A stretch of DNA of 64,000 bases, taken from positions 1 to 64,000 of the forward strand of contig VFZL01000016.1 in assembly GCA_016871175.1 (NCBI GenBank). The letters run 5' to 3'. Under the pieces are notes generated by a model, which worked only from the letters and a program-made list of their open reading frames with translations, was not told the origin of the DNA and made no database searches. Below, piece by piece: positions 17,218 to 21,801 of the stretch (the first letter of the stretch is position 1; each line of letters starts with the position of its first letter). This stretch comes from Acidimicrobiia bacterium (GTDB lineage Bacteria; Acidobacteriota; Vicinamibacteria; Vicinamibacterales; CAVVIG01). The position numbers were made by a program, and so were the translations under genes.

Positions 17218-18205
17218 GATGTTGCAGATCGTCGAGGCCATTCGCGCGCGTCGGCGCTTCGTCCTCTCCTCGCATGCCCGTCCGGACGGCGACTCCATCG
17301 GCTCGCAACTGGCGATGGCCTACGCGCTGCGAGCACTGGGCAAAGAAGTGCGCCTCGTGAACAAGGACCGAGCGCCGGCCATGCTCCAACCGTTTCCTGG
17401 CGTATCGACAATCGAGATCGCCGACACCGTGCGGGACACGTTCGATGCCGCCGTCATCATGGAGTGCAGCGACCTCGCCCGGACAGGCGTCGCCGGACTG
17501 GACCGCTCGTTCGTGATCAACATCGACCATCACCCCGGCAACACCGAATACGGACAGATCAACTGGTTCGATTCATCGGCGGCGGCGTGCGGCGAGATGG
17601 TCTTCGACGTGGTCAAGGCGCTTGGCGTCCCGATGTCGGTCGAGATCGCCACGCACGTGTACGTCGCGATCCTTACCGACACGGGATCCTTTCACTACTC
17701 GAATATCACGCCGCGGACGTTCGCCATCGCACAGCAGTGCCTGGAAGCCGGCGTGGCACCGGTCGCGGTCTCTCGGCAGGTCTGGGACAGCAACAGCATG
17801 GGGCGTTTGAAGCTCTTCGGAGCCGTGCTGAGCAAAATGCAGATCGACTCGACGGGCCGCATCGCGATTCTGTATCTGGACCATGCGATGGCACGCGAAG
17901 CCGGCGGCACCTACGAGGACGTCGAAGGGCTGATCAACCAGCCCCTGACGGTCAAGGAGATCCAGGCTGTCATCTTCTTCAAGCAGAGCGAGGGTGACGA
18001 GTACCGCGTGAGCATGCGCTCGAAAGGCAACATCGACATTGGCTCGGTGGCCAAGCAGTTCGGTGGGGGCGGTCACAAGAACGCGGCCGGGTGCACCGTC
18101 GTCGGCGCGGTCGGCACACTGCAGCGAACCTTCGTCGACAAGATGACCAGGGCGATCGACGAGCACGTGCCAGAGGTCATCGCAGCACCGCGTGCCTCCG
18201 TCTGA
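17201..18205 (+). CDS. nrnA: DHH/DHHA1 phosphoesterase, NrnA-like oligoribonuclease/pAp phosphatase
   Basis: 334 residues. The DHH domain has SSHARPDGDSIGSQ (motif I), the DHH motif itself in INIDHHPGN, and a further metal-site region at ILTDTGSF. The DHHA1 domain ends with GGGGHKNAAGC. NrnA enzymes degrade 2-5 nt RNAs and hydrolyse 3'-phosphoadenosine 5'-phosphate. An ATG at 17201 with AAGGAG just upstream inside rbfA fixes the start. Conserved position between rbfA and truB. Confidence 0.9.
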   Translation: MTHSPEMLQIVEAIRARRRFVLSSHARPDGDSIGSQLAMAYALRALGKEVRLVNKDRAPAMLQPFPGVSTIEIADTVRDTFDAAVIMECSDLARTGVAGLDRSFVINIDHHPGNTEYGQINWFDSSAAACGEMVFDVVKALGVPMSVEIATHVYVAILTDTGSFHYSNITPRTFAIAQQCLEAGVAPVAVSRQVWDSNSMGRLKLFGAVLSKMQIDSTGRIAILYLDHAMAREAGGTYEDVEGLINQPLTVKEIQAVIFFKQSEGDEYRVSMRSKGNIDIGSVAKQFGGGGHKNAAGCTVVGAVGTLQRTFVDKMTRAIDEHVPEVIAAPRASV

Positions 18206-19187
18206 CGGAAGGGACAATCGGGCTCCGGTGGACGGACTGCTCATCCTCGACAAGCCCGTCGGGCCCACCTCACATGATATCGTGGCGCGCGTCCGTCGCG
18301 TGCTGCGTGAGTGGCGAATCGGGCACACCGGCACGCTCGATCCCAACGCGAGCGGCGTCCTGGCGTTGGTTGTCGGCCGCGCAACCCGGCTCGCGCAGTT
18401 CCTGGCGAACGACAGCAAAGCCTATGACGCTCTCGTCCAGTTCGGGGTCTCCACCGAGACCGACGATGCGCAAGGCGGGCCGCTGAACATCCCCTTTTCG
18501 GGGAACTGGCCGACCTTGGAGGAGGTACAGGGTGCGCTCGAGACATTTCGCGGCACACAGCGGCAACGTCCGCCTGTCTACTCCGCCAAGAAGATCCACG
18601 GCCGCCGGTCCTATGCGCTCGCGCGCGCCGCGTCCCGAACCGGCACGGGCTCCGAGTCTCGGCAGCCGGCACCAGTGGAGGTCACACTATACGACTTCAC
18701 GATCGCTCGGTATGAGAGTGGGTTGCTGGCGCTAGGGCTGACCTGCTCCGCCGGCTTCTACGTGCGAGCGCTGGCGCGCGATCTGGGTGAGCGCCTTGGA
18801 ACGGGCGGGCACATGTCCGGTCTACGTCGAACGCGCAGCGGCGCGGCGACACTCGATCGCGCGCTGAGCCTCACGACGATCGAGGCGACCCCCGAACGTG
18901 CTGCCGAGGCGTTGGTGCCAATGGCGGACATGTTGCTCAACCTTCCAGCGCTTCGCTTGACCGACGCGGGGGCGACACGCGCACGTCACGGGTCGGTGCT
19001 GGGCGTGTCGGACGTCGAGGCGCGGCTCGCTCCTCAGGGAGACGCGACGCCCCTGACCAGCGCGCGGGACGCTCCCGTCATCAGGCTGCTGAGCCCGAGC
19101 GGCGAGCTGCTCGCCATCGCCCGCTCTCGGTCGGCGGGAGAGGGTGAAGGGAGGTGGGCACTTCACCCGACGGTGGTTCTGGTGTGA
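18192..19187 (+). CDS. truB: tRNA pseudouridine-55 synthase TruB
   Basis: 331 residues; makes pseudouridine 55 in tRNA. The catalytic aspartate is D50 in GHTGTLDPNASGVL. The substrate-loop motif LANDSKAYDALVQFGVSTETDDAQG and the tyrosine-containing PVYSAKKIHGRRSYALAR follow. The C-terminus is degenerate PUA-like. Start GTG 18192 overlaps the end of nrnA by 14 bases. The rpsO promoter begins just past its stop. Confidence 0.93.
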   Translation: MPPSDGRDNRAPVDGLLILDKPVGPTSHDIVARVRRVLREWRIGHTGTLDPNASGVLALVVGRATRLAQFLANDSKAYDALVQFGVSTETDDAQGGPLNIPFSGNWPTLEEVQGALETFRGTQRQRPPVYSAKKIHGRRSYALARAASRTGTGSESRQPAPVEVTLYDFTIARYESGLLALGLTCSAGFYVRALARDLGERLGTGGHMSGLRRTRSGAATLDRALSLTTIEATPERAAEALVPMADMLLNLPALRLTDAGATRARHGSVLGVSDVEARLAPQGDATPLTSARDAPVIRLLSPSGELLAIARSRSAGEGEGRWALHPTVVLV

Positions 19188-19197
19188 TGAGTGGGCT

Positions 19198-19226
19198 TTG
19201 CATCCCCCGATCGTCTGAAGTAAGAT
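19198..19226 (+). promoter_or_regulatory. Promoter of rpsO
   Basis: TTGCAT (19198-19203), a 17-base spacer, and TAAGAT (19221-19226), 10 bases after the truB stop. It gives a leader of about 145 bases before the rpsO start, long enough to hold the folded element at 19271-19346. Confidence 0.5.
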
Positions 19227-19270
19227 CTTAAGCTTGTTCGACTAAGAGGTTCTCTTGCATACGGCGGTAC

Positions 19271-19346
19271 GGCCGGATTCGCGAGCGCACGCCACGCGCT
19301 CGTCTGCGACCCGAGTTGGGACTCGACGCAGCAACGGCATCCGGCC
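19271..19346 (+). promoter_or_regulatory. rpsO leader: three-way-junction RNA, probable S15 autoregulatory element
   Basis: Three perfect helices nest cleanly. P1 is GGCCGGAT (19271-19278) with ATCCGGCC (19339-19346). P2 is CGAGCGC (19282-19288) with GCGCTCG (19296-19302), loop of 7, plus a G-U pair at its base. P3 is CTGCG (19304-19308) with CGCAG (19327-19331), topped after a small internal loop by CGAGT (19312-19316) with ACTCG (19321-19325) around loop TGGG. P2 and P3 are almost adjacent and a 7-base strand links P3 to P1, so the fold is a three-way junction. The GGAGG ribosome site (19361-19365) lies 15 bases after it. S15 binds a three-way junction in 16S rRNA and, in Thermus and Geobacillus, one in its own mRNA, so autoregulation is the natural inference. 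Confidence 0.6.
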
Positions 19347-19375
19347 CCTGGACCGTTCGTGGAGGTACGCACACC

Positions 19376-19645
19376 GTGGCGTTGACCAAAGATCTAAAAA
19401 CGGAACTGATTGGCTCCTACAAGACCCACGAATCCGACACGGGCTCACCCGAAGTACAGGTCGCCATTCTGAGTGAGCGGATCAACTACTTGACCGCTCA
19501 CTTCAAGGCACACGCGAAAGACCATCACTCCCGCCGGGGACTCCTCATGCTGGTCGGTCGGCGCCGTCGTCTGCTCGATTATCTCAAGACGAAGGATGAG
19601 CAGCGGTACGTGGAGCTGATCAAGCGCCTGAACATCCGGAAATAG
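19376..19645 (+). CDS. rpsO: 30S ribosomal protein S15
   Basis: 89 residues from GTG 19376, preceded by GGAGG at 19361-19365. The frame runs further upstream but only through the leader. Conserved S15 blocks are [35 protein letters not shown] and [13 protein letters not shown]. It binds the central domain of 16S rRNA early in 30S assembly. Followed by pnp, the order seen in most bacteria. Confidence 0.96.
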
Positions 19646-19698
19646 CGCGCGGCGGCACACCGCCCATGCGCGTTCACTCCACTCACATTCATCGACCT

Positions 19699-21801
<2,103 letters not shown>

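Follow-up and report, generated by a model that had tools for sequence, protein, structure and literature searches.

The rpsO gene of soil bacteria of the order Vicinamibacterales is preceded by a small conserved RNA stem that ends directly on the Shine-Dalgarno sequence, and comparison of leaders makes it very probable that ribosomal protein S15 would clamp this stem, cover the ribosome-binding site and repress rpsO. Surplus S15 would probably switch off its own production via this leader. The first-pass annotation of the window (the whole stretch of DNA analyzed, 64,000 nt) had seen a likely S15 autoregulatory leader here, in the form of a compact three-way junction at 19271-19346. An autoregulatory leader is well supported comparatively, by its position before rpsO, by covariation and by the presence of the GU/GC motif. 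The three-way junction, judged against the leaders of relatives, is a local, lineage-specific extension of a conserved hairpin.

Anatomy of the rpsO leader

In the window, rpsO lies between two genes that look like truB and pnp, and the leader occupies the interval between the putative truB and rpsO. The features of the locus are as follows.

18192-19187, plus strand: putative truB (tRNA pseudouridine synthase), upstream of rpsO, from gene order, position and C-terminal motif
19198-19226, plus strand: promoter-like element, TTGCAT (19198-19203), 17-nt spacer and TAAGAT (19221-19226)
19261-19272, plus strand: 5' arm of the conserved stem, ACGGCGGTACGG, read as ACG, GCGG, U and ACGG, from model match and covariation
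19271-19272 with 19348-19349, plus strand: GU/GC motif, G19271 pairing with U19349 and G19272 with C19348, from covariation
19273-19347, plus strand: variable apical part, a three-way junction in the genus of the window (P2 and P3 on P1), from length comparison and fold
19348-19360, plus strand: 3' arm of the conserved stem, CTGGACCGTTCGT, read as CUGG, A, CCGU, U and CGU with U19357 bulged, from model match and 16S comparison
19361-19365, plus strand: Shine-Dalgarno sequence GGAGG, directly after the stem
19376-19645, plus strand: rpsO, ribosomal protein S15, 89 residues with a GTG start, from reading frame and translation
19666-21801, plus strand: putative pnp (polynucleotide phosphorylase), downstream of rpsO, from gene order and sequence; the ATG at 19699 is the more likely start

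Across the roughly 110 rpsO leaders of the same order that we compared, the conserved core is one bulged 12-bp stem, which the first-pass annotation had not picked up. In its order-wide consensus the 5' strand reads ACG and then GCG(G/C)n(C/U)(C/U)GG, and the 3' strand reads CUGG n (C/G)CGU N CGU. With no gap, the Shine-Dalgarno sequence comes next, as GGAGG in 102 of 108 leaders and as GGAAG in six. The most constant pairs are those of the GU/GC motif, with the G.U pair kept in 105 of the 108 leaders and the adjacent G-C pair in 107; the three leaders with A-U instead of G.U (L006, L008 and L012) all have long apices. The apical part, in contrast to the stem, ranges from 6 to 88 nt among relatives and has no common sequence, being mostly a simple hairpin, with a tetraloop in some (as in L028). 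The interval 19271-19346 corresponds to this variable part and includes two bases of the conserved stem, and the conserved element begins 10 nt before it and ends 14 nt after it.

Distribution and covariation of the stem

We searched with two covariance models, R1 built from 20 leaders with the long forms of the window's family left out, and R2 built from 100 leaders with that of the window included. R1 matched 113 of the 162 genomes of the order, with a single match per genome and one exception, and gave zero matches in about 350 genomes of the phylum outside the order. The R1 matches that were fetched all lie just before rpsO, except for L240 (the match of one genome) and L244 (a weak second match), and each of 100 chosen loci contains exactly one match, before rpsO. 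In 81 loci from other groups, among them Bacillus relatives and Alphaproteobacteria, R1 found no significant match before rpsO; three weak matches there had E values of 0.5-2.5, and that in L081 stands immediately ahead of an rpsO. The window element is matched by R1 even though its own leader was not used to build that model (33.6 bits), and with R2 the stretch 19261-19365 is the best match in its own genome, at 35.5 bits against 21.1 for the next.

The weak matches L240, L244, L268 and L271, which are not at rpsO, were taken as chance. One member of the order (L250, genome G044) has a normal rpsO with no recognisable leader stem upstream. Another (L007, genome G023), of the same genus as the long-form L012, has a leader that looks decayed, ACGGCGTGCGGC...CTGGAGGTTTCGTGGAGG, and pairs much less well. 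Four divergent leaders (L234, L235, L248 and L251) carry paired mid-stem changes, GCUG/CAGC, GCAG/CUGC, GCAG/CUGU and GCUG/CAAC, respectively.

Covariation among rpsO leaders, which the first-pass annotation had named as the check on its proposal, was found in the outer stem. In the alignment of 100 leaders, 96% of the cells are paired across the 12 pairs, compared with at most 46% in slid controls. The same alignment holds 25 both-side changes against 3.9 in shuffles, none of 500 shuffles reaching 25, a count that leans towards the model because the alignment was fitted to it. RNAalifold, with no structure supplied, predicts the same 12 pairs. On a tree of the S15 gene, which is rough and based on 267 nt, we counted 18 compensatory events where 8.2 are expected by random placement (maximum 17 in 2000 trials), and pair 7-47 alone accounts for 7 events against 0.58 expected.

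These results bear on the reading of stem and junction together as a chance structure of a GC-rich leader. The fold of the wider context (19226-19400) is indeed no more stable than shuffles, with a z-score of only -0.28, as such a reading would have it. Yet covariation and conservation across the order, as seen in these alignments, exclude a chance origin for the stem, for which the reading is refuted; we give it practically no weight for the leader as a whole, and P1-P3 may still be chance.

The three-way junction in the apical part

The junction first noticed in the window consists of three helices.

19271-19278 with 19339-19346, plus strand: P1, GGCCGGAT with ATCCGGCC, enclosing P2 and P3
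19282-19288 with 19296-19302, plus strand: P2, CGAGCGC with GCGCTCG
19304-19308 with 19327-19331 and 19312-19316 with 19321-19325, plus strand: P3, CTGCG with CGCAG plus CGAGT with ACTCG

They are present as originally described. Folded alone, 19271-19346 reaches -39.7 kcal/mol (z-score -3.09), with none of 200 shuffles as stable. The further claim, that the junction is the defining, S15-binding structure, was not supported by comparison: the junction lies in the variable apex and is absent from nearly all relatives. P1-P3 could be compared in one same-genus genome only (L006), where P1 keeps four of eight pairs, two of them compensatory, P2 keeps four of seven and P3 nine of ten with no compensation, and two sequences cannot settle conservation. 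The compensatory changes expected in all three helices were thus seen in two pairs of P1, a helix otherwise half broken, and not in P3, which leaves the junction unconfirmed. P1 also pairs G19271 and G19272, the two G of the GU/GC motif, in a register that competes with the conserved stem, and the predicted minimum free energy of the window leader is -48.8 kcal/mol with P1 against -45.0 kcal/mol with the conserved stem imposed, favouring P1 by 3.8 kcal/mol.

The apical P1/P2/P3 junction could itself be what S15 binds, as a mimic of the junction that helices 20-22 form in 16S, with the outer stem a mere anchor. That the junction folds well alone would fit this, as would the two compensatory pairs of P1 relative to L006, the multibranched long apices of about seven family members (the window, L004, L005, L006, L008, L012 and L015, of differing sequence) and the loss of the G.U pair of the GU/GC motif in three long forms. 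Nearly all relatives lack the junction, yet keep the stem and its linkage to rpsO; P1 is half broken within the same genus; and the junction of 16S stands across the GU/GC motif from this position, towards the point where stem and Shine-Dalgarno sequence meet. We therefore regard the junction as an unlikely S15 site and prefer the conserved stem in this role.

Recognition by S15 might also have been exchanged within the family, from an ancestral minimal GU/GC stem to a state in which some genera are now read via the added apical junction. The relaxed G.U pair, which is A-U in L006, L008 and L012, and the competing register in the window would belong to such an exchange; since all A-U leaders have long apices, a shift of recognition in these genera is suggested as possible. 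We consider the exchange doubtful. If true, it would be a natural record of one S15 leader architecture turning into another.

Likeness to the S15 site in 16S rRNA

S15 reads the GU/GC motif both in 16S rRNA, at helix 22, and in rpsO leaders already known (PMC4684408; PMC10931766), among them the rpsO mRNAs of E. coli and mycobacteria (PMC4684408; PMC10931766; PMC10269663). In E. coli 16S rRNA, G666 pairs with U740 (PMC10269663). His42, Asp49 and Ser52 of E. coli S15 read the motif (PMC8470358), and the S15 encoded in the window carries all three residues.

The 16S gene is absent from the assembly itself, and the comparison was made with the 16S of relatives. Eight bases of the 3' arm, CUGGACCG, recur unchanged at positions 739-746 in the 16S of relatives, two of which read CUGGACCGA at 739-747; the stretch reads CCUGGACCGAUA in the 16S of two relatives and CCUGGACCGUUC in the 3' arm of the window. 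Among all sense-strand 16S 9-mers, the 3' arm is matched best by this register, which starts at C739. The reverse strand of 16S gives a better chance match, so the likeness of sequence is weak by itself, support rather than proof.

Helix 22 (G666.U740/G667-C739) and the leader share 5'-GG/CUGGACCG-3' in the same polarity and on the same 3' strand, with CGG/CCG pairs below. Unlike helix 22, the leader is without the purine-rich internal loop and without the three-helix junction, and has the Shine-Dalgarno sequence in the junction's place. The mimicry is only partial, because the 5' arm of the leader is paired opposite 741-743, where 16S is read as having purine mismatches. The direction from the GU/GC motif to the three-way junction in 16S is that from the top of the stem to the Shine-Dalgarno sequence in the leader. 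The leader shows four features of S15 leaders: a place in the rpsO 5' untranslated region (with the transcription start as predicted below), a covarying structure, partial imitation of 16S and adjacency to the ribosome site.

Transcription of the leader

Of 108 leaders, 94 have a -10-like hexamer (TAACAT, TAAGAT, TAAAAT or similar) ahead of the stem, at a median distance of 34 nt, as opposed to 4 of 102 in a control segment. The hexamer shares bases with the truB stop codon in most relatives, where TTGCAT falls within the codons of the TruB C-terminus. A promoter role is nevertheless favoured, because in the window the TTGCAT-17-TAAGAT arrangement persists outside truB, which ends earlier (19187). 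A sigma-70 scan found no consensus match at 19198-19226, and the promoter is weak by consensus. The promoter first proposed for the leader at these positions stands as a pair of hexamers, the -10-like one of which is widely kept, and falls short as a sigma-70 consensus match. Transcription of the leader is predicted to start at about 19231-19233.

The 3' end of truB is apparently duplicated in the window (19143-19226): the tail of the gene reads ALHPTVVLV before its stop at 19187, and a frameshifted second tail-like stretch, TTGCATCCCCCGATCGTC, follows and provides the promoter-like TTGCAT...TAAGAT. Two single-contig genomes (L129 in G029 and L130 in G041) have the leader with TATCAT upstream and no adjacent truB. 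Between the -10-like hexamer and the stem lies a box, AGCTTGTTCGACTAAG (19230-19247 in the window), that is kept across the family (L003-L024); it is non-coding in the window and in many relatives is readable as a tiny frame, MLSLFD, after TAAC. We set this small frame in the truB-stem interval of many family members aside, because the start codon of the frame shares bases with the -10-like hexamer and is lacking in the window.

A model for autoregulation by S15

The comparison shows a conserved, covarying stem placed at rpsO and alike in sequence to helix 22; from it we infer S15 binding, a steric block of translation and an effect on pnp. The stem imitates helix 22 with its GU/GC motif, which is the upper half of the site that S15 occupies in 16S. 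In the proposed mechanism, the GU/GC-binding loop of free S15 would contact the stem at its top. A helical turn further down, in the place of the 16S three-way junction, the protein would reach the stem base and the adjoining Shine-Dalgarno sequence. Because the stem ends on GGAGG, bound S15 would cover the ribosome site; docked there, it would stabilise the stem, block binding of the 30S subunit and repress rpsO, and pnp behind rpsO would probably be repressed as well. The apical part is free to vary, and has grown into a three-way junction in the genus of the window. Binding of S15 near the Shine-Dalgarno sequence has been found enough for regulation in selected RNAs (PMC5100602).

Stem-loops are common near start sites, and the stem could act without S15, as an entry site for ribonuclease or a stability hairpin, or as a ribosome standby site or insulator setting the basal translation of rpsO. 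The near-constant G.U and G-C pairs, the identity with the S15 site of 16S and the restriction to rpsO would then be left unexplained, and we judge a stem not bound by S15 to be quite improbable.

Comparison with known S15 leaders

Regulation of one protein by several unrelated mRNA structures has its textbook example in S15. The leader described here is probably a new architecture of this known kind. Published S15 leaders come from Gammaproteobacteria, relatives of Bacillus, Thermus, Alphaproteobacteria, Actinobacteria, Chlamydia, Flavobacteria and archaea (PMC4137082; PMC7247131), and we found none from Acidobacteriota in the literature searchable without subscription. Rfam searches of the window and 20 relatives gave chance matches only, with none at E values up to 10 in the window and, for the relatives, none at rpsO up to an E value of 5. 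The alphaproteobacterial and Bacillus rpsO loci were equally unmatched. The absence from Rfam says little on novelty, because two groups with published leaders are missed too, and we rejected it as proof.

The leader would add a further S15 architecture, in a phylum for which we found none on record. It would also be very small: some genomes have a region of 36 nt, one hairpin that runs straight into the Shine-Dalgarno sequence. Of the two halves of the S15 site the leader would isolate the one with GU/GC, allowing a clean test of whether that half suffices. Two members of the order with complete genomes carry the leader, which makes the claim testable.

The pseudoknot-type rpsO leader of E. 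coli and mycobacteria, which we take to be Rfam RF00114 (S15), is alike in its rpsO target and in the translation-level autorepression expected of it. GU/GC (U-G/C-G) is its main S15 determinant as well (PMC10931766), but it has a pseudoknot, whereas the leader here is a single bulged stem with none. The leader of Geobacillus and Bacillus also precedes rpsO, has GU/GC about one helical turn from a second contact and shares a junction with the form in the window; there the three-way junction stands one turn from GU/GC, whereas here it is apical and lineage-specific, and the rpsO leaders of Bacillus relatives are unmatched by R1. The Thermus thermophilus leader likewise precedes rpsO, imitates part of the 16S site and competes with the ribosome. 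It does so with a three-way junction imitating the GGC base triple, without the GU/GC motif (PMC4684408), which in the leader here is the most constant element. Many rpsO loci of Acetobacteraceae are unmatched by R1. The alphaproteobacterial leader of Rhizobium radiobacter (H1 and H2) is alike in having GU/GC in its most conserved hairpin and the ribosome site near the stem; it is made up of two hairpins, of which H2 contains the ribosome site (PMC4137082), whereas the Vicinamibacterales leader has one stem, with the ribosome site outside it.
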